From Desulfurobacterium atlanticum (GTDB taxonomy: Bacteria > Aquificota > Aquificia > Desulfurobacteriales > Desulfurobacteriaceae): DNA of 64,000 nt. Under the pieces are notes generated by a model, which worked only from the letters and a program-made list of their open reading frames with translations, was not told the DNA's origin and ran no database searches. How positions within the stretch are numbered: position 1 is the stretch's first letter; the number at the start of each line of letters is the position of its first letter. Positions 35,197 to 57,573 of the stretch are shown here, in pieces. Where the stretch lies: assembly GCF_900188395.1 (NCBI RefSeq), contig NZ_FZOB01000001.1:1-64000 (forward strand). The letters are read 5' to 3'. The position numbers and the translations under genes were made by a program.

Positions 35197-35233
35197 TACT
35201 GTTTTCTATAGAAATAATATTTTATGTTTCTTG

Positions 35234-35262
35234 TTGACATAATATCAGAATTTCCTTATACT
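35234..35262 (+). promoter_or_regulatory. Near-consensus promoter of the hydrogenase operon, flanked by inverted A/T repeats
   Basis: TTGACA (35234-35239), a 17-base spacer and TATACT (35257-35262) lie 34 bases before the hydB start. This is the best promoter by eye in the window. An AATAATATT box at 35213-35221 and the related inverted box AATATTAT at 35264-35271 flank it and may be operator half-sites. Confidence 0.8.
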
Positions 35263-35295
35263 AATATTATCTTAACTTCATCTCTGGAGGTTAGA

Positions 35296-36384
35296 ATGGA
35301 ATTCCAGTTAGAGACCGCAAAAATTCTTCCTAAGGAAAATTTAGGCAGATTTCTTGAAAGCTTAAAAAGTTTTGGTAGATTGATTGCTCCAGTTAAAAAG
35401 GAACAAAAGTTTGTCTTTTCAAAGATTGATGATGTTTCTGTAGTTGAAACAGACTATGTTAGAACAATTCTTCCTCCAAAAAAGTTTATTCTTGGCTATT
35501 TAAGAGAAAGATTTGAATACTCTCCAGATAGTATGGAGTTTACTGAAACTTTCACTTCTCAACCTCAGATTATTTTTGGATTGCATTCCTGCGATCTTCA
35601 TGGAATAGCGATTCTTGATGCAGTTTATTTAAAGGGAGAAAATCCTGATCCTCGCTATCTTGCTGCAAGAAAGGAAACGGTGCTTATAGGTATTTCTTGT
35701 ATTCCTGATGAGGATTGTTTCTGTATTTCAACAGGAACAGCTTTTCCAGATGGAACAAGCTGGGACCTGTTTTTTACCGATATAGGGGATAGTTATTTTG
35801 TTTCTATCGGTAGCGTAAAGGGAGATGAGATAGTTCACTCTTTTGAAGAACTTTTTAAGGATATTTCAAAAAAGGAACTTTCACTTTATAAAAAGGTGAC
35901 TGCTGAAAAGAAGTATATGTTTAAAGAGAGGGATGTTCCAGATCTTGAAAGGATTTCTCAGGTTATTGAGCTTGAGTTTGATTCTGAAATCTGGGATGAA
36001 GAGGCAAAGCGATGTTTTAGCTGTGGAACCTGTACCAACACCTGTCCAACGTGTTTTTGTTATACAAGTGTTGATGTTCCTTCACTTGACGGCTCGCTTG
36101 TGAAAAGGGTTGAATTTATTACCTCATGTCAGTATCCCTATTACTCTCTTGTTGCCGGTGGCCACAGATTCCATGAGAATCTTAAAGAGAGATTTAGAAA
36201 CCGTTATTACCATAAGTATGTGGGGTATCCCTATCAGATAGAGCGTTTCGGCTGTGTTGGATGTGGTAGGTGCCAGCATGAATGCCCTGCAGGTATAAGA
36301 ATTGTTGATACTCTTAAAAAACTGAGAGGAGCGGGAGATGAAGAAGAGTCTGGAAAAGTTACTGACAATATCCACAGTGCATGA
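35296..36384 (+). CDS. hydB: Group 3b hydrogenase beta (iron-sulfur) subunit
   Basis: The electron-transfer subunit of a tetrameric NAD(P)-linked NiFe hydrogenase (sulfhydrogenase type). The 362-residue protein has a GLHSCDLHGI motif and two C-terminal cluster sets, CFSCGTCTNTCPTCFC and CVGCGRCQHECP. ATG 35296 follows CTGGAGG; a longer frame from 35224 overlaps the promoter and is rejected. It overlaps hydG by 47 nt. Confidence 0.9.
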   Translation: MEFQLETAKILPKENLGRFLESLKSFGRLIAPVKKEQKFVFSKIDDVSVVETDYVRTILPPKKFILGYLRERFEYSPDSMEFTETFTSQPQIIFGLHSCDLHGIAILDAVYLKGENPDPRYLAARKETVLIGISCIPDEDCFCISTGTAFPDGTSWDLFFTDIGDSYFVSIGSVKGDEIVHSFEELFKDISKKELSLYKKVTAEKKYMFKERDVPDLERISQVIELEFDSEIWDEEAKRCFSCGTCTNTCPTCFCYTSVDVPSLDGSLVKRVEFITSCQYPYYSLVAGGHRFHENLKERFRNRYYHKYVGYPYQIERFGCVGCGRCQHECPAGIRIVDTLKKLRGAGDEEESGKVTDNIHSA

Positions 36385-51660: not shown

Positions 51661-51663
51661 TTA

Positions 51664-51690
51664 GGGGGATATATCCCCCTTCTTTTTAGT
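51664..51690 (+). terminator. Rho-independent terminator after korC
   Basis: The palindrome GGGGGATATATCCCCC (51664-51679) is followed by TTCTTTTT. It begins three bases after the korC stop and ends in the stop codon of the convergent pilin-like gene. Confidence 0.88.
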
Positions 51691-53083
51691 ATTCAAGCCA
51701 TTTTTCAATTTTTATTTTTCCACCTGTTGCTCCATTTTCTATCTGCCTTTTGAGTTCGCAAAATAAGTTTTTATATACTCCTGAAATTCCGTAATCTGTT
51801 CCATTGTTGCAAAACATTTTAATTTCTTCATAAGTTAAACCACTTCCAGCAAAATCCCATTTCCCTTTAAAAGAAACATTTCCCTCAGGAACAATAACAG
51901 CCATGTTTCGTGGGTAATGTGCTGATGCATCTGAATTAATTCCATGGGCTGTAAGTCCCTTGTCAGCCCAGACTACCCAATTTGTATATTGTTTAGTGCT
52001 TCCTGTTTGGTCTATAAGATATTGGCTGTTTAAATTCTGGTTTAGTGTAAACTTCCCTTCAGTAAGAATAAAAATGTTGGATGCCTTTGTTTCTGCTTCT
52101 CCAGCAGTAATTTTGATGAAATCCTGAGTTGCTCCTACTATTTCCTCTTTCCCGTACAGTAGAATATTGTAGTTTTCTTCGGGCTTAGCTGTAAGATATA
52201 TAAATTCTTTCCCTCCATTCAACAATATTTTCCCTTTGGCCAGCACTTTTATGTCTATATTTTCTATACTTCCTGTTTCTATACTTCCTGTTTTTTTAAA
52301 GACACCGTTTGCGTTGGAGTTTACAACTATATCCTGCTGTGCTGCAATAGTTATGTTAAATTTATCATCTGTTGGTTCTATCTGGGTATTAATAGTTACC
52401 GTTTTTCCGCAAACCGTCACTATGCCGTCTCCATTTTTATCATAAGGATTAAAATTAAGTGAGTAATCACTATTGTAATTTCCGTAGTCACACGCTGTTT
52501 CTTCGGGGAAAATTTCGTCGGCATTTATGTTTGAAACCCGAGGTATTTGTGGATTTGTAAGGTAATCTATGGTAAATCCTGCATCTTCCATCTGTTCTTT
52601 TGAACTTTCATCTGCAAACTTCAAAACTCCCATATATGCGTCACTCCATTTTCCTCCATCAAAGTTTTCAACGTGATATGTCCCATTTATTGAAAAAGGA
52701 TAGAAGTTTCCTCTTCCTAAAGAGAATTCAACAATGACTTCCCTTACCGAATTTCTGTAAATTCCTTTTGATTGTATTCTTACTCTATTGCCGCTTTGCT
52801 TATTTATAGAAACATCAAAATTGCCGTATCTTAGGTTTTTTTGCACTCTATTTGGAGAGCATGTTGCACTTTTACAATCAATATCACCTTTTTTTATTTC
52901 AGTTAGTGCTACCTCTACGCCGCTTTGAGCGGCTCTTAAAGCTTTTAAGCTATTAATTGTTTTTGCGGTTGTTCCTGTTTCCTGATTTATTACATATGCA
53001 CCTATCGCTCCTGCTATACTTAGAACGGCAATTGTTCCAAGAATTGTGACAAGAACCATTCCTTTTCTCATTGTTTTCCTCAT
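51686..53083 (-). CDS. PilX-like large pilus-associated protein (paralogue 1)
   Basis: A 465-residue protein with a pilin-like N-terminus: short basic leader, a hydrophobic helix (about 8-31), then ALRAAQSGVE, the hallmark of PilX_N/GspK-type proteins. There is no G-FTLxE cleavage motif. The extracellular part has CDYGNYN (198-204), a calcium-loop-like D215-x-N217-x-D219-G-I, and a tail G-L-T-Y-E-E-I...C-E-L-K...K-W-L-E-Y. These are shared with the two upstream paralogues. Possibly a pilus-tip or adhesin component; no named function can be given. Last gene of the minor-pilin operon. Confidence 0.75.
   Translation of the reverse strand: MRKTMRKGMVLVTILGTIAVLSIAGAIGAYVINQETGTTAKTINSLKALRAAQSGVEVALTEIKKGDIDCKSATCSPNRVQKNLRYGNFDVSINKQSGNRVRIQSKGIYRNSVREVIVEFSLGRGNFYPFSINGTYHVENFDGGKWSDAYMGVLKFADESSKEQMEDAGFTIDYLTNPQIPRVSNINADEIFPEETACDYGNYNSDYSLNFNPYDKNGDGIVTVCGKTVTINTQIEPTDDKFNITIAAQQDIVVNSNANGVFKKTGSIETGSIENIDIKVLAKGKILLNGGKEFIYLTAKPEENYNILLYGKEEIVGATQDFIKITAGEAETKASNIFILTEGKFTLNQNLNSQYLIDQTGSTKQYTNWVVWADKGLTAHGINSDASAHYPRNMAVIVPEGNVSFKGKWDFAGSGLTYEEIKMFCNNGTDYGISGVYKNLFCELKRQIENGATGGKIKIEKWLEY
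52261..52290. repeat. 15-bp perfect tandem duplication in the PilX-like gene
   Basis: TTTCTATACTTCCTG occurs twice in a row, adding five in-frame residues (G-S-I-E-T repeated on the coding strand). A recent slippage-type expansion in an exposed part of the protein. Confidence 0.9.
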
Positions 53084-53105
53084 GAATCAGGGTTTATTTA
53101 ATAAT

Positions 53106-54446
53106 TTAATATTCCTTCCAGTAGATTATTTTAATTTCCCCGCTTCCTGTTTCAATCTGTGTTTTAAGTTCACAGTACAGCTGTTTTACAGTTTCAGGAA
53201 TTCCCAGAGATGTTCCGTTTAAACAGTAGTTAACTATATCTTTATAGGAAAGGCCGCTTCTGTCCTCGCTTCCGCTGAACGCCCAGTGGTCAAATACAGC
53301 ATCACCGTTTGCAACTATTACAGAAAAATTCCTTACAGTTGAAGAGGAACCGGCAATATCAAATCCTCCATTTTCACTGTTTATTCCTTTGTCACCCCAT
53401 AATACGAAATTAACGTCGTTTCGCGTTGTTGCTGTGTCATCTATAATGTCTCTGTTTACATTGATTTCACCTTCTGTCATAATAAATACATTTGAAACGT
53501 TAGCTGTGTTCTGGTTCCCTGAAATAGAGATAAACTGTCCAGTTGTATCGGGACTTGAGATTTCATTTTTTGCATATAAAATAAGATTAAAACCTTCATC
53601 GGCTCCTGAAAAGTCTATATTGCTATTTCTATCAAAATATGCTGTATCACCGGCAATAATACTTAAATCTGAAGCACTACCAACCTTTTGTTTCAATGTT
53701 GTGTTTGGAGTGAATGTTACGTTTCCTTTTGCTGCTATAACTGTATCTTTATTAAAGTAGATAAGGGCATCATCTAATGTAATGTTTTTCCCGCAAACAA
53801 CAATTTTTCCATCATTATTGACATCTTCAGGGTCATTTTTTACTACTAAATCTGTGTTGTAATTGCCATAATCACACTCTGATTCGGAAGGGTAAAAGAT
53901 AGAACTATCTATATCTGCAACTTTTGGAACATCAAGTGTGTTTGATATTGTTATTTTAAAGCCGATATCTGTTAATTCTTCATAGGTGTTGTTATCTATG
54001 GTTTTAACACCAGCTTCTGCTTCGGTCCAGTTTCCAGAGCCAGTGTTGTCAAAATCATTTATTTTAAAAAGTCCGTTTATTGCGAAAGGGTAAAAAATCC
54101 CTGTCTTTTCAACTTTTACTTCAACTTTCCTTAAAGCGTTGCTGGTTTTTCCTGTGGAGATTATGGTTATTGAATTGTCAGAGTTTTTTGTGAGATTCAC
54201 ATAGAAATAACTGCCATCTATTGTTCCGTTGAAAGCATAGGGAAAAGTGCCAACTCCATTTTTTAATTTTACAAGGGCTTCTTCTACTCCACTTTGAGCG
54301 GCTTTTAAGGCTTTAATACTGTCTTTGGTAGATTTTGCTGTTTTTGTCTCTCTTGAAATTACATATCCCGCTACTCCTCCGAGCAAAGAGAGAATTGCCA
54401 CAAATGCAAGCGTTGTTTCAATTACAAGTCCTCTTCTTGTCATCAA
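53106..54446 (-). CDS. PilX-like large pilus-associated protein (paralogue 2)
   Basis: A 446-residue paralogue of its neighbours with the same plan: R-R-G-L-V start and hydrophobic helix (about 8-31), ALKAAQSGVEEAL, FYPFAINGLF, CDYGNYN (191-197), a D208-x-N210-x-D212-G-K-I calcium-like loop, and the tail G-L-S-Y-K-D-I...C-E-L-K...Y-W-K-E-Y. It starts within the last bases of paralogue 3 (ATGA overlap), so the genes are cotranscribed. Function unknown; secreted and pilus-linked by context. Confidence 0.75.
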   Translation of the reverse strand: MMTRRGLVIETTLAFVAILSLLGGVAGYVISRETKTAKSTKDSIKALKAAQSGVEEALVKLKNGVGTFPYAFNGTIDGSYFYVNLTKNSDNSITIISTGKTSNALRKVEVKVEKTGIFYPFAINGLFKINDFDNTGSGNWTEAEAGVKTIDNNTYEELTDIGFKITISNTLDVPKVADIDSSIFYPSESECDYGNYNTDLVVKNDPEDVNNDGKIVVCGKNITLDDALIYFNKDTVIAAKGNVTFTPNTTLKQKVGSASDLSIIAGDTAYFDRNSNIDFSGADEGFNLILYAKNEISSPDTTGQFISISGNQNTANVSNVFIMTEGEINVNRDIIDDTATTRNDVNFVLWGDKGINSENGGFDIAGSSSTVRNFSVIVANGDAVFDHWAFSGSEDRSGLSYKDIVNYCLNGTSLGIPETVKQLYCELKTQIETGSGEIKIIYWKEY

Positions 54447-56059
54447 TACTCTTTCCAGTTTTTAATGTTTAAATTTTCAAATCCTTCTTTCTCTATCAAC
54501 TTTTTAAGTTCGCATATCACATTTGATAATGGCGAGTTTACACTTTCTGTGTAGTTACACCATTCAACTATCTCCTCGTAGGTTAAGCCATTTCTTTTTT
54601 CCCTTCCTGAAAAGAACATATCACCAAGAGTTAGATTTCCCTGAGTTAAAAATCCTATGTATCTTATTTCATCCCCACTGTTTGCTACGTATTTTATTTT
54701 TCCTGCGTTTATGTCTCCGTCTGACCACACAAGCAGATCAAGCCACTCTCTGCCGCTTATATTGATAAAGTTGTTATCGCCCATATCTATACCATTTTTT
54801 GATATAAGGACAACACTACTCTTCTGGTCCAGGTCTGCTGATGCGTATCCTGAAATATCAAACAGATAGGTGCCTTCGCCAGAACCGGGGGCTGAAAGTT
54901 CAGAGATTATTTTATCTCCTGCATAGATGAATGTCTGATAATTTTCGCTTTTCCCTGAAAGTTGCAGTTCGGAGTTAAGGTAAATGTCTCCTTCTTTTGC
55001 AATGATGGAAACAAGTTTTTCATCTGTGGCGTATATATGGATTTGGTCATTGATTTTTATATCTCCTTCTTCAGATATAAAGCTTATATTTACACTATCA
55101 CTATTACTGTTTCCTCCTCCAGAACTTAAGCTTCCTATATTGGCGTTAACTTCAATATCGCCGGTTGTTTTTATCACAAGAGAGGCATCATTTATATCTG
55201 TGCTTGAGATGCTGGTTTCAATACTTATAGGTCCACCGTCATTACAGAGCACTATTTTTCCATCTCCATTTTTGTCTTCTAACTTTACATAGGTTCCATC
55301 TTTGATATAAACAGCAGGATAGGAATAGCTGATTCTACCAGGCCCTGTTGCAATGGAAACGCTATCTATCTTTTCAACGTTGTTTATATCGCATTCATAC
55401 TCTGGAAATGCGATGTTTAAGTCTTCCACCTTCGGTATAAAAGCGCTGTTAGCGTCCTGGAATAAAGGAGCAAGTCTTTGTCTCATCTCTTCTGTGATTG
55501 TGCCGTCTGGTCCTACAACAAACTTAATGTTCCAGGAAGTTCCATCTATTGAGATTTTATCGTTGCAAAATCCGAAGCCTTCTCCAGCCCAGAAAATTGT
55601 TTCATTTTCCCATTCTCTTGACCCGGGAGCACCAACATTTATAAAATCACATATAGTTAACATTTCTCCAGCAGCAAAAGACCTTAACGCTCCTCCTTCA
55701 GGTTCTATTGTAACTTCTACAATCCTGCTGTTTCCGTTAAGATACCCTGTGGATGTTAACAGATAACTTCCATCATTTTTCTTCTTTATTATGACGGTGT
55801 AATTTCCATTTTTTATATTTCCTATAAGTTTGTATGTATTATTGTCAACTTTTTCAAGCTGGGATAACCTGTTGGATTTTACATACGTTAGAGCTGTTTC
55901 TATTCCTGATTGGGCAATCCGCAGGGCTGCTACACTCTTTTTTGTTCTGTGACCGGTTCCTGTTCTTTGCATCACCGTGTATGTTGCAATTCCTCCTGCT
56001 ATGGTAAGAACAGCGATTATTCCCAACGTTGCCACAATAACAAAACCTTTTCTTTTCAT
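54443..56059 (-). CDS. PilX-like large pilus-associated protein (paralogue 3)
   Basis: At 538 residues this is the largest and most divergent of the three. It has a basic MKRKGF start, hydrophobic helix (about 5-28), ALRIAQSGIETAL, an I-P-K-V-x-D-L-N...ECD segment in place of CDYGNYN, the calcium-like loop D262-x-N264-x-D266-G-K-I, and the tail G-L-T-Y-E-E-I...C-E-L-K...N-W-K-E-Y. ATG 56059 is chosen because GGAGG stands six bases upstream; a longer frame to 56083 lacks such a site. It follows the PilW-like gene. Confidence 0.77.
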   Translation of the reverse strand: MKRKGFVIVATLGIIAVLTIAGGIATYTVMQRTGTGHRTKKSVAALRIAQSGIETALTYVKSNRLSQLEKVDNNTYKLIGNIKNGNYTVIIKKKNDGSYLLTSTGYLNGNSRIVEVTIEPEGGALRSFAAGEMLTICDFINVGAPGSREWENETIFWAGEGFGFCNDKISIDGTSWNIKFVVGPDGTITEEMRQRLAPLFQDANSAFIPKVEDLNIAFPEYECDINNVEKIDSVSIATGPGRISYSYPAVYIKDGTYVKLEDKNGDGKIVLCNDGGPISIETSISSTDINDASLVIKTTGDIEVNANIGSLSSGGGNSNSDSVNISFISEEGDIKINDQIHIYATDEKLVSIIAKEGDIYLNSELQLSGKSENYQTFIYAGDKIISELSAPGSGEGTYLFDISGYASADLDQKSSVVLISKNGIDMGDNNFINISGREWLDLLVWSDGDINAGKIKYVANSGDEIRYIGFLTQGNLTLGDMFFSGREKRNGLTYEEIVEWCNYTESVNSPLSNVICELKKLIEKEGFENLNIKNWKEY

Positions 56060-56084
56060 TTTTGCCTCCGCAGTAAGGTTCAAA

Positions 56085-56633
56085 TTACCAGTTTCTGCAT
56101 ATCACTTTGTCTCCGATAGAAAACGGTTTGTCTTTTACTGTTCCGTTTATAACATAAGAAACTGTTTTGGTTGTGTTGTCTATATCTACATTGAAACTGT
56201 TAACGGTAACGATACTTTCATCAAACATCGGTTGCTCTGTTCCAGTTCCGTCAGCTCCCTCATCTACATATCGGTAAAGATTGTTGTTCTGTAAGAAGTA
56301 CTTTATTTCGTACGAACAACTGTCTCCTATAGACCATGTTTTGTTTTCACATATAACATTTTCATAATTAACATATCTAACTATCAAACTACTTCCGTTC
56401 CATTCCACCGGTTTATCACTTGCTTCAACATCGCCATAACCTGCTTTTTTTAAATCGGAGTCTATAATTTCAAGTGCGTTGAATATGGAGATACTTCCCC
56501 TTGACTTTTTCATCGTTTTATCCATCTGTCTGTAGCCAACGGAGAAGAATATAAAGGCTGCAGTCATCAGAATAAGAGCTATAGACATTCCGACAATAAG
56601 TTCGGTAAGGGTGAATCCGCTACGCCACTTCAT
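56085..56633 (-). CDS. PilW-like minor prepilin
   Basis: A 182-residue type IV prepilin with leader MKWRSG, cleavage before F-T-L-T-E-L (glutamate at +5) and a hydrophobic helix. A downstream globular domain contains several cysteines. The size and place between PilV- and PilX-type genes suggest the PilW role, part of the tip-priming minor pilin complex. The exact orthology is inferred from order. Confidence 0.8.
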   Translation of the reverse strand: MKWRSGFTLTELIVGMSIALILMTAAFIFFSVGYRQMDKTMKKSRGSISIFNALEIIDSDLKKAGYGDVEASDKPVEWNGSSLIVRYVNYENVICENKTWSIGDSCSYEIKYFLQNNNLYRYVDEGADGTGTEQPMFDESIVTVNSFNVDIDNTTKTVSYVINGTVKDKPFSIGDKVICRNW

Positions 56634-57029
56634 TTACCAGTTTCCTTTAATGTAGTTTAAAGTTACATTTCCTGTGTAGTTCTGGTATGTGAATGTTGCT
56701 ATTACCGTTATCTCTTTTGTGTCTGGAGATGTTCCCAAGTTTACAATCCATCTTACACTTTTATCACCTGCAAAGCCGTCACAACACGACCCTGTATCAT
56801 TTTCGCAGGTATCATCCGTTCCTATAGTTAGACACAAATCTGTATAGTTTAAGCTTATTAGGTGTTCTAAAACTTTGTTTGCTTTATAAAGTGCAACTTC
56901 TCTCTCTTCGTTGATTTTTGAGTATTTTATATTGAAAACAAGAAGTGCCCCTATTCCGAGTATTGCAATAGCAAATATCGCCATTGCAGCTATTATCTCT
57001 ATGATGGTGAATCCCTTTCTATTTTTCAA
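56634..57029 (-). CDS. PilV-like minor prepilin
   Basis: A 131-residue prepilin with leader MKNRKG and F-T-I-I-E-I after the cleavage site. The mature part has a cysteine-rich patch (D-T-C-E-N...S-C-C-D-G). It starts at TTG 57029 immediately after the stop of the FimT-like gene, with GAAGAGG upstream. The N-terminal A-I-L-G-I-G-A-L resembles PilV/PulJ-type proteins. Confidence 0.8.
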   Translation of the reverse strand: MKNRKGFTIIEIIAAMAIFAIAILGIGALLVFNIKYSKINEEREVALYKANKVLEHLISLNYTDLCLTIGTDDTCENDTGSCCDGFAGDKSVRWIVNLGTSPDTKEITVIATFTYQNYTGNVTLNYIKGNW

Positions 57030-57464
57030 CTAAAGCCTCTTCAATTGGATTCTGCCGCCTATATTGTTTATTACTATGTTATAGGTTACGCCATATCCTG
57101 AAATTACAATGGTGCCTCCTGTTATTGGAAGTTTATTTCTTCTAAATTTAATTTCGTTATTTGTAAAATTACTTAATAAACTGATGTTTGTGTCATCTAT
57201 CGTAATTGATTTGATCGGTGTGGTTGCCGTTTCAGGTGCGTAGATTTCATATCTGTCAGAATAGATTTTTACTTTACTTGAACCTTTTTCCATTGCGAGT
57301 CCCTGTGCAAACTGCAGGTCAGCTGTTAGCTGTTCTGCTACCTGCCTTACTTTAGTGCTATTTATCCATCTGCCTATTTTTGGAACTGCTATAGCAGCAA
57401 TAATTCCTACTATTGCTATAACAATTATAAGTTCAGTCAAAGTGAATGCATTTAACTTTTTCAA
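57030..57464 (-). CDS. FimT/GspH-like minor prepilin
   Basis: A 144-residue prepilin. The leader is MKKLNA, with alanine instead of the usual glycine before F-T-L-T-E-L. After the helix comes a GspH/FimT-type domain (A-E-Q-L-T-A-D-L-Q-F-A-Q-G-L-A). TTG 57464 is selected because GGAG lies six bases upstream and gives a normal short leader; an earlier TTG would add four residues. First gene of the six-gene minor-pilin operon. Confidence 0.8.
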   Translation of the reverse strand: MKKLNAFTLTELIIVIAIVGIIAAIAVPKIGRWINSTKVRQVAEQLTADLQFAQGLAMEKGSSKVKIYSDRYEIYAPETATTPIKSITIDDTNISLLSNFTNNEIKFRRNKLPITGGTIVISGYGVTYNIVINNIGGRIQLKRL

Positions 57465-57573
57465 AACTGTCTCCAAATTTTGTTAAAAATTTTTCTGACT
57501 TTAAATTTAATTATATACTTTGCTTTATAGAGAAACAACTTTATAAAAAATCTAAAATTCCTTTGAAAATTTA

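Follow-up and report, generated by a model that had tools for sequence, protein, structure and literature searches.

ComZ of Thermus thermophilus is a tip pilin with a beta-solenoid inserted into its pilin sheet; its authors considered that only a tip location is possible, reported that DNA, and also the neighbouring minor pilin PilA2, is bound, found no clear positive patch on the protein and noted that the solenoid resembles the ice-binding-protein fold (PMC6561018). ComZ carries Gly5 instead of Glu5, and its gene adjoins pilA1-pilA2-pilA3. Loss of Glu5 is common to PilX and GspK; GspK has been proposed as the ultimate tip, a place given to PilX in the Myxococcus model, and of the three gene clusters for tip complexes in Myxococcus xanthus, one is enough by itself for pilus formation (PMC7541494). 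Modular pilins offer another case: in Streptococcus sanguinis PilB, a loop connects the pilin module to a vWA domain, and the filament displays this functional domain on a minor pilin (PMC8179133).

A gene order similar to that of the comZ region occurs in the thermophile Desulfurobacterium atlanticum, in a window that comprises positions 1-64,000 of contig NZ_FZOB01000001.1. Six tightly packed genes, in the order H, I, J, K3, K2, K1, occupy positions 51686-57476 of its minus strand (Table 1), with intergenic gaps of 0 to 25 bp and an overlap of 4 bp between K3 and K2. A promoter scan of the region gave results no better than shuffled sequences, and the regional count of hairpin-type sites around the terminator-like hairpin beyond K1 was not above that of shuffles.

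Table 1. Coordinates of the minor-pilin genes, their motifs and related loci; positions without a contig label are those of the window
Feature	Position	Strand	Description
H	57030..57476	-	GspH/FimT-like minor pilin opening the operon; Glu5 present; PF07963, PF12019 (GspH)
I	56634..57029	-	PilV/GspI-like minor pilin; Glu5 present; PF07963; TIGR02523 at 25.4 bits, under its cut-off
J	56085..56633	-	PilW/GspJ-like minor pilin of 182 aa (short type-A form); Glu5 present
K3	54443..56059	-	PilX/GspK-type minor pilin, 538 aa; predicted beta-solenoid (ComZ-like); no Glu5; own extra cysteine pair
K2	53106..54446	-	ComZ-like minor pilin, about 446 aa; TTG start; no Glu5
K1	51686..53083	-	ComZ-like minor pilin, 465 aa; no Glu5; most divergent copy between species
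K3 loop DKNGDG	55259..55276	-
K2 loop DVNNDG	53808..53825	-	flanked by invariant cysteines 191 and 218
K1 loop DKNGDG	52424..52441	-
Hairpin	51663..51680	.	near-symmetrical, G+C-rich; between K1 and convergent 2-oxoacid oxidoreductase genes; terminator-like on the + strand
Endonuclease V-like/hydrogenase-region junction	35197-35300		no K gene between
T2SS locus, D. atlanticum	L084:921-10649		pseudopilins G, I, J and GspK; C-, D-, E-, F-, L-, M- and N-like genes
Solo K genes, G001 and G002	L034:4463-6088; L036:4855-6510		between endonuclease V-like and hydrogenase-region genes
Two H-I-J-K operons, G010	L041:7161-10677; L041:12015-14653		same contig
PilY1-headed minor-pilin operons	L033:4265-9893 (G001); L038:4083-9698; L043:4718-10609		long J and 135-136-aa PilX-like protein
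Short PilX-like protein beside PilY1, congener G001	L033:9483-9893		135-136 aa

K3, K2 and K1 are homologous end to end, with pairwise identities of 35% (E 2e-87), 25% (5e-28) and 27% (3e-31) in BLASTP alignments of full-length coverage, which bears out a preliminary description of the locus as three tandem PilX-like paralogues ending a minor-pilin operon. The motifs listed in that description, AQSG(V/I)E, P(R/K)V, CD, DxNxDG and a CELK...WxEY end, are indeed found in all three proteins, and both DxNxDG and the terminal WxEY are exclusive to them among the 62 non-nested ORFs of the window (20,496 aa); the likeness, however, extends to the entire sequence and not to short motifs alone, and DxNxDG is not family-wide, being present in 7 of 13 homologues. 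Each protein begins with a short, basic leader ending in G or A (MKRKG, MTRRG and MRKTMRKG), followed by a hydrophobic stretch, as expected of pilins with a class III signal peptide; in K2 and K3 the N-helix is also seen in the models. Mature position 5 is Glu in H, I and J, whereas it is Ala in K3 and Thr in K2 and K1, and this departure from the Glu5 of type IV pilins is the pattern of a subunit in the GspK/PilX position.

PilX_N (PF14341) scores 18.6 bits with K2, against a cut-off of 25.5, and does not match K1 or K3; the cut-off is passed by the homologues of two relatives (G005 and the solo copy of G002). Neither the T2SSK domain nor the PilY1 beta-propeller (PF05567) was found in K1-K3, and their C-terminal regions gave no known domain in Pfam and NCBIfam. 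Sequence searches of the PDB returned no meaningful match, whether the query was K3, the 13-member profile or a distant five-member profile; phmmer hits to spike S2' and to oxidoreductases (E 0.35-0.57) were rejected as chance. The genome-contig scan retrieved no relatives with K1 as the query, and with the alignment as the query conservation was too low. Like type IVa PilX, the K proteins have a PilX-like N-helix without Glu5 and are encoded at the end of an H-I-J-X operon; unlike it, they are three to four times longer, have a predicted beta-solenoid and lack a PilY1 partner gene. Their reading as oversized PilX/GspK-type minor pilins is upheld, and the proposed excess of two to three times the normal PilX size holds against the short PilX-like protein of the congener G001.

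AlphaFold models of K3 and K2 were built from an alignment of 13 K proteins, and had mean pLDDT values of 80 and 87 and pTM values of 0.78 and 0.75, respectively. In both, a long N-helix leads into four pilin-like strands and a neck, after which come a series of short strands of the kind that makes up beta-solenoids, then two helices and one last strand. The WxEY end lies inside this last predicted strand (K2 436-444, K3 529-537), and these models favour seeing it as the closing strand of the pilin fold. Foldseek searches of the PDB identified ComZ (6QVI) with a probability of 1.00 (E 4.3e-7 for K3 and 2.1e-5 for K2) as the sole match under E 0.001 for either model, the next matches of K2 being solenoids of ice-binding proteins. 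The alignments to ComZ have low TM-scores, 0.16-0.24, with an rmsd of 13-18 A across about 550-660 columns, and therefore the agreement is one of fold type and order, not of rigid superposition. At this fold level, both models combine a pilin module with a large beta-solenoid, and the predicted strand order of K2, with solenoid, two helices and final strand 436-444, fits the ComZ-type arrangement. No sequence similarity to ComZ was detected by searching PDB sequences with profile A2, up to E 10.

The resemblance to ComZ therefore comprises a pilin module without Glu5, a large predicted beta-solenoid, three adjacent genes for smaller GspH/I/J-like minor pilins and a probable tip position, whereas the D. 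atlanticum proteins differ in their three tandem copies, in a shorter solenoid (about 190-230 residues versus about 380), in their cysteine pairs and DxNxDG loop, and in the acidity of the solenoids. Since the predicted architecture matches a solved tip pilin (PMC6561018), the suggestion that K1-K3 form a tip or adhesin not yet described is not supported, and on the models they are most likely oversized ComZ-type tip pilins rather than an undescribed calcium adhesin. The location at the pilus tip, also put forward previously, is supported as probable by the loss of Glu5 and by the predicted ComZ-type fold. Compared with S. sanguinis PilB, the K proteins would likewise display a functional domain borne by a minor pilin, with the difference that the solenoid is predicted to lie within the sheet.

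The lack of PilY1, also noted before, holds genome-wide: neither PF05567 nor the PilY1 of a congener matched anything in the D. atlanticum genome, which is 99.7% complete, and a family profile made of three PilY1 proteins also found nothing there. The same profile detected PilY1 in 14 of the 22 genomes of the family, with E 0 in both best congeners. In G001, G002 and G017, PilY1 heads an operon that also encodes H-, I- and long J-like pilins and the short PilX-like protein. A profile of the short type-A J divides the genomes cleanly: the seven that have a large K, and no others, score 262-289 bits, and the rest reach at most 64 bits, their best match usually being the long J beside PilY1. Among the 16 genomes at least 90% complete, five have a large K only, nine PilY1 only, two both, and none lacks both (Fisher p = 0.005, with no correction for phylogeny); over all 22 family genomes the association of large K and PilY1 gives p = 0.052, also uncorrected for relatedness. 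The two cassettes coexist in G001 and G002.

In its simplest reading, this distribution has the ComZ-like cassette taking the place of the PilY1 cassette. PilY1 itself is no pilin but a separate protein with a beta-propeller; its large exposed tip domain would fill the same role as the K solenoids, and the two are nearly complementary in occurrence in the family. A wider proposal, which we advance tentatively and hold to be somewhat short of an even chance, is that in this one family the type IV pilus tip is made from two interchangeable cassettes, one combining PilY1 with a short PilX, the other consisting of ComZ-type solenoid pilins and lacking PilY1; the second would have expanded into alternative tips with different, strongly conserved solenoids, and PilY1 would then be dispensable wherever the tip pilin bears its own receptor domain. 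Outside the family, a profile search found N-terminal relatives of K in other families of the class, where several operons end in proteins of 500-625 aa with no PilY1 adjacent. The link to K seen in profile comparison (97.5% probability) is confined to the N-terminal 128 columns, and the middle parts of these proteins are either unrelated in sequence to K or too divergent for alignment.

As the closest solved structure is the DNA-binding ComZ, and as ComEC, PilB, PilT and PilC are all encoded in the genome, K1-K3 might be DNA receptors that capture DNA as ComZ does. This explanation appears unlikely. The solenoids are acidic (pI 4.2 in K2, 5.1 in K1 and 4.2 in K3), which is a weak argument against it, although ComZ likewise has no clear positive patch; moreover, ComEC is nearly universal, occurring also in 10 of 14 control genomes, and so is not specific, and DNA capture does not need three divergent copies. 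Because of the acidic solenoids and the near universality of ComEC, we favour, with modest confidence, a tip receptor for a surface or a substrate rather than one for DNA. Candidate ligands of the K solenoids are a mineral or cell surface, a polysaccharide, or DNA.

The K homologues collected by genome search of relatives number from one to four per genome. G001 has three tandem genes and one solo copy, and G002 has one operon copy and one solo copy, while G005, G007 and G004 have one K each; single-K operons are those of G002, G005 and G007. G010 has two H-I-J-K operons, with one K of 680 aa and the other cut by the contig end, and the K of G004 reaches 841 aa, so that the solenoid varies greatly in length. 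H, I and J lie immediately upstream of K in D. atlanticum and in six relatives. In a tree of the K proteins, K3 groups with the K3 of G001, and K2 with the K2 of G001 and the K of G007, while the placement of K1 is not resolved. The solo genes of G001 and G002 are flanked by endonuclease V-like and hydrogenase-region genes; the corresponding genes of the window (61% and 86% identical to those of G001) adjoin each other.

Across the 13 aligned K proteins, five cysteine pairs are gained or lost strictly together. The pair 191/218 (K2 numbering) is present in all 13, and the pair 408/425 in 11, both residues being missing from two solo copies; the three remaining pairs are restricted to the K3 group, to the solo copies, and to G010 and G004, respectively. 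Since cysteines appear and vanish strictly in pairs, which is the behaviour expected of disulphides, these bonds are predicted from the alignment alone. The DxNxDG loop lies inside the invariant pair, and for this reason it is best read as a decoration on a disulphide-closed turn.

The preliminary description had K1, K2 and K3 jointly forming one heteromeric, calcium-dependent adhesive tip. The tandem arrangement of the genes in one likely operon, the same three-gene arrangement in G001, and the presence of DxNxDG in K1-K3 and in their G001 counterparts are all in line with that idea, which is nonetheless improbable. All three proteins lack Glu5 and a single K is found in several operons, which disfavours a heteromer. 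The loop itself is absent or degenerate in 6 of the 13 homologues, even in the sole K of the complete operon in G002 and G005; it has the residues of an EF-hand-like loop (D1-x-N/D3-x-D5-G6-x-I8, acidic 12) at positions 1, 3, 5 and 6, but G or N in place of an acidic residue at position 12. Calcium dependence is thus not borne out, and the calcium loop was rejected, on conservation, as a family-defining feature; some members of the family may possibly bind calcium.

A very unlikely explanation is that the copies are spare or decaying duplicates, with one functional K. K1 is the least conserved copy between D. atlanticum (G000) and its congener G001, with 35% identity in the solenoid and 34% in the pilin core, and copy number fluctuates among relatives; against decay, the three reading frames are intact, the cysteine pairs are kept, and the orthologues of K2 and K3 are retained in G001 with solenoids 75% and 60% identical. 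In K2 the solenoid is better conserved than the pilin core (75% vs 42% between G000 and G001; 69% vs 44% in comparison with G007), and the solo copies follow the same trend (94% vs 80%), which is missing in K1. For K2, this conservation suggests a fixed ligand or docking role, and not antigenic drift.

In all likelihood the cassette belongs to a type IV pilus, because D. atlanticum has an independent type II secretion system with its own pseudopilins, and PilB, two PilT, PilC and PilA-like pilins are encoded elsewhere in its genome. The GspK of the secretion locus was confirmed by Pfam, with a T2SSK domain. Like GspK, K1-K3 lack Glu5, probably occupy a tip position and are predicted to have an additional domain set into the pilin fold; the insert of GspK is, however, alpha-helical and lies between strands 3 and 4. 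That the cassette caps a second T2SS-like pseudopilus, with the K solenoids recruiting secreted substrates, is suggested by the GspK-like position and the H-I-J-K order, but is highly improbable and was rejected given the separate system, a single compact locus with its own pseudopilins and GspC, D, E, F, L and M, far from K genes that lack the T2SSK domain.

We consider it likely, therefore, that K3, K2 and K1 are ComZ-type minor pilins of the type IV pilus in the GspK/PilX position, acting as alternative solenoid tips that do the job of PilY1 and a short PilX; the tip position, the alternative use and the receptor or adhesin role are what we infer. Each K would consist of a hydrophobic N-helix, a small pilin sheet and, just as in ComZ, a large beta-solenoid that precedes the last pilin strand. 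The Glu5-bearing H, I and J would make up the base of the tip complex, and one K, lacking Glu5, would cap the complex and prime assembly, its solenoid being the part of the pilus that makes the first contact with the surroundings. The single-K operons of relatives indicate that one K suffices; moreover, with a single outermost place and three Glu5-less paralogues, alternatives are easier to envisage than partners, and the three copies would exclude one another at the tip, each offering a different solenoid. The K cassette would do the work of PilY1 and the short PilX in sister genomes.

What is new here is the tandem expansion, a cysteine-paired variant outside Thermus and the apparent exchange with PilY1. 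Descriptions of ComZ have so far come from Thermus, where it was characterised as a receptor of DNA for competence; that a distant lineage shares the predicted architecture, with the genes in tandem and in place of PilY1, suggests that PilY1 may have a general alternative in solenoid tip pilins. What a tip requires for starting a pilus and for sticking is a long-standing question, which could be tested through sister species with one tip or the other, and the close relatives with both cassettes, G001 and G002, are natural test systems.
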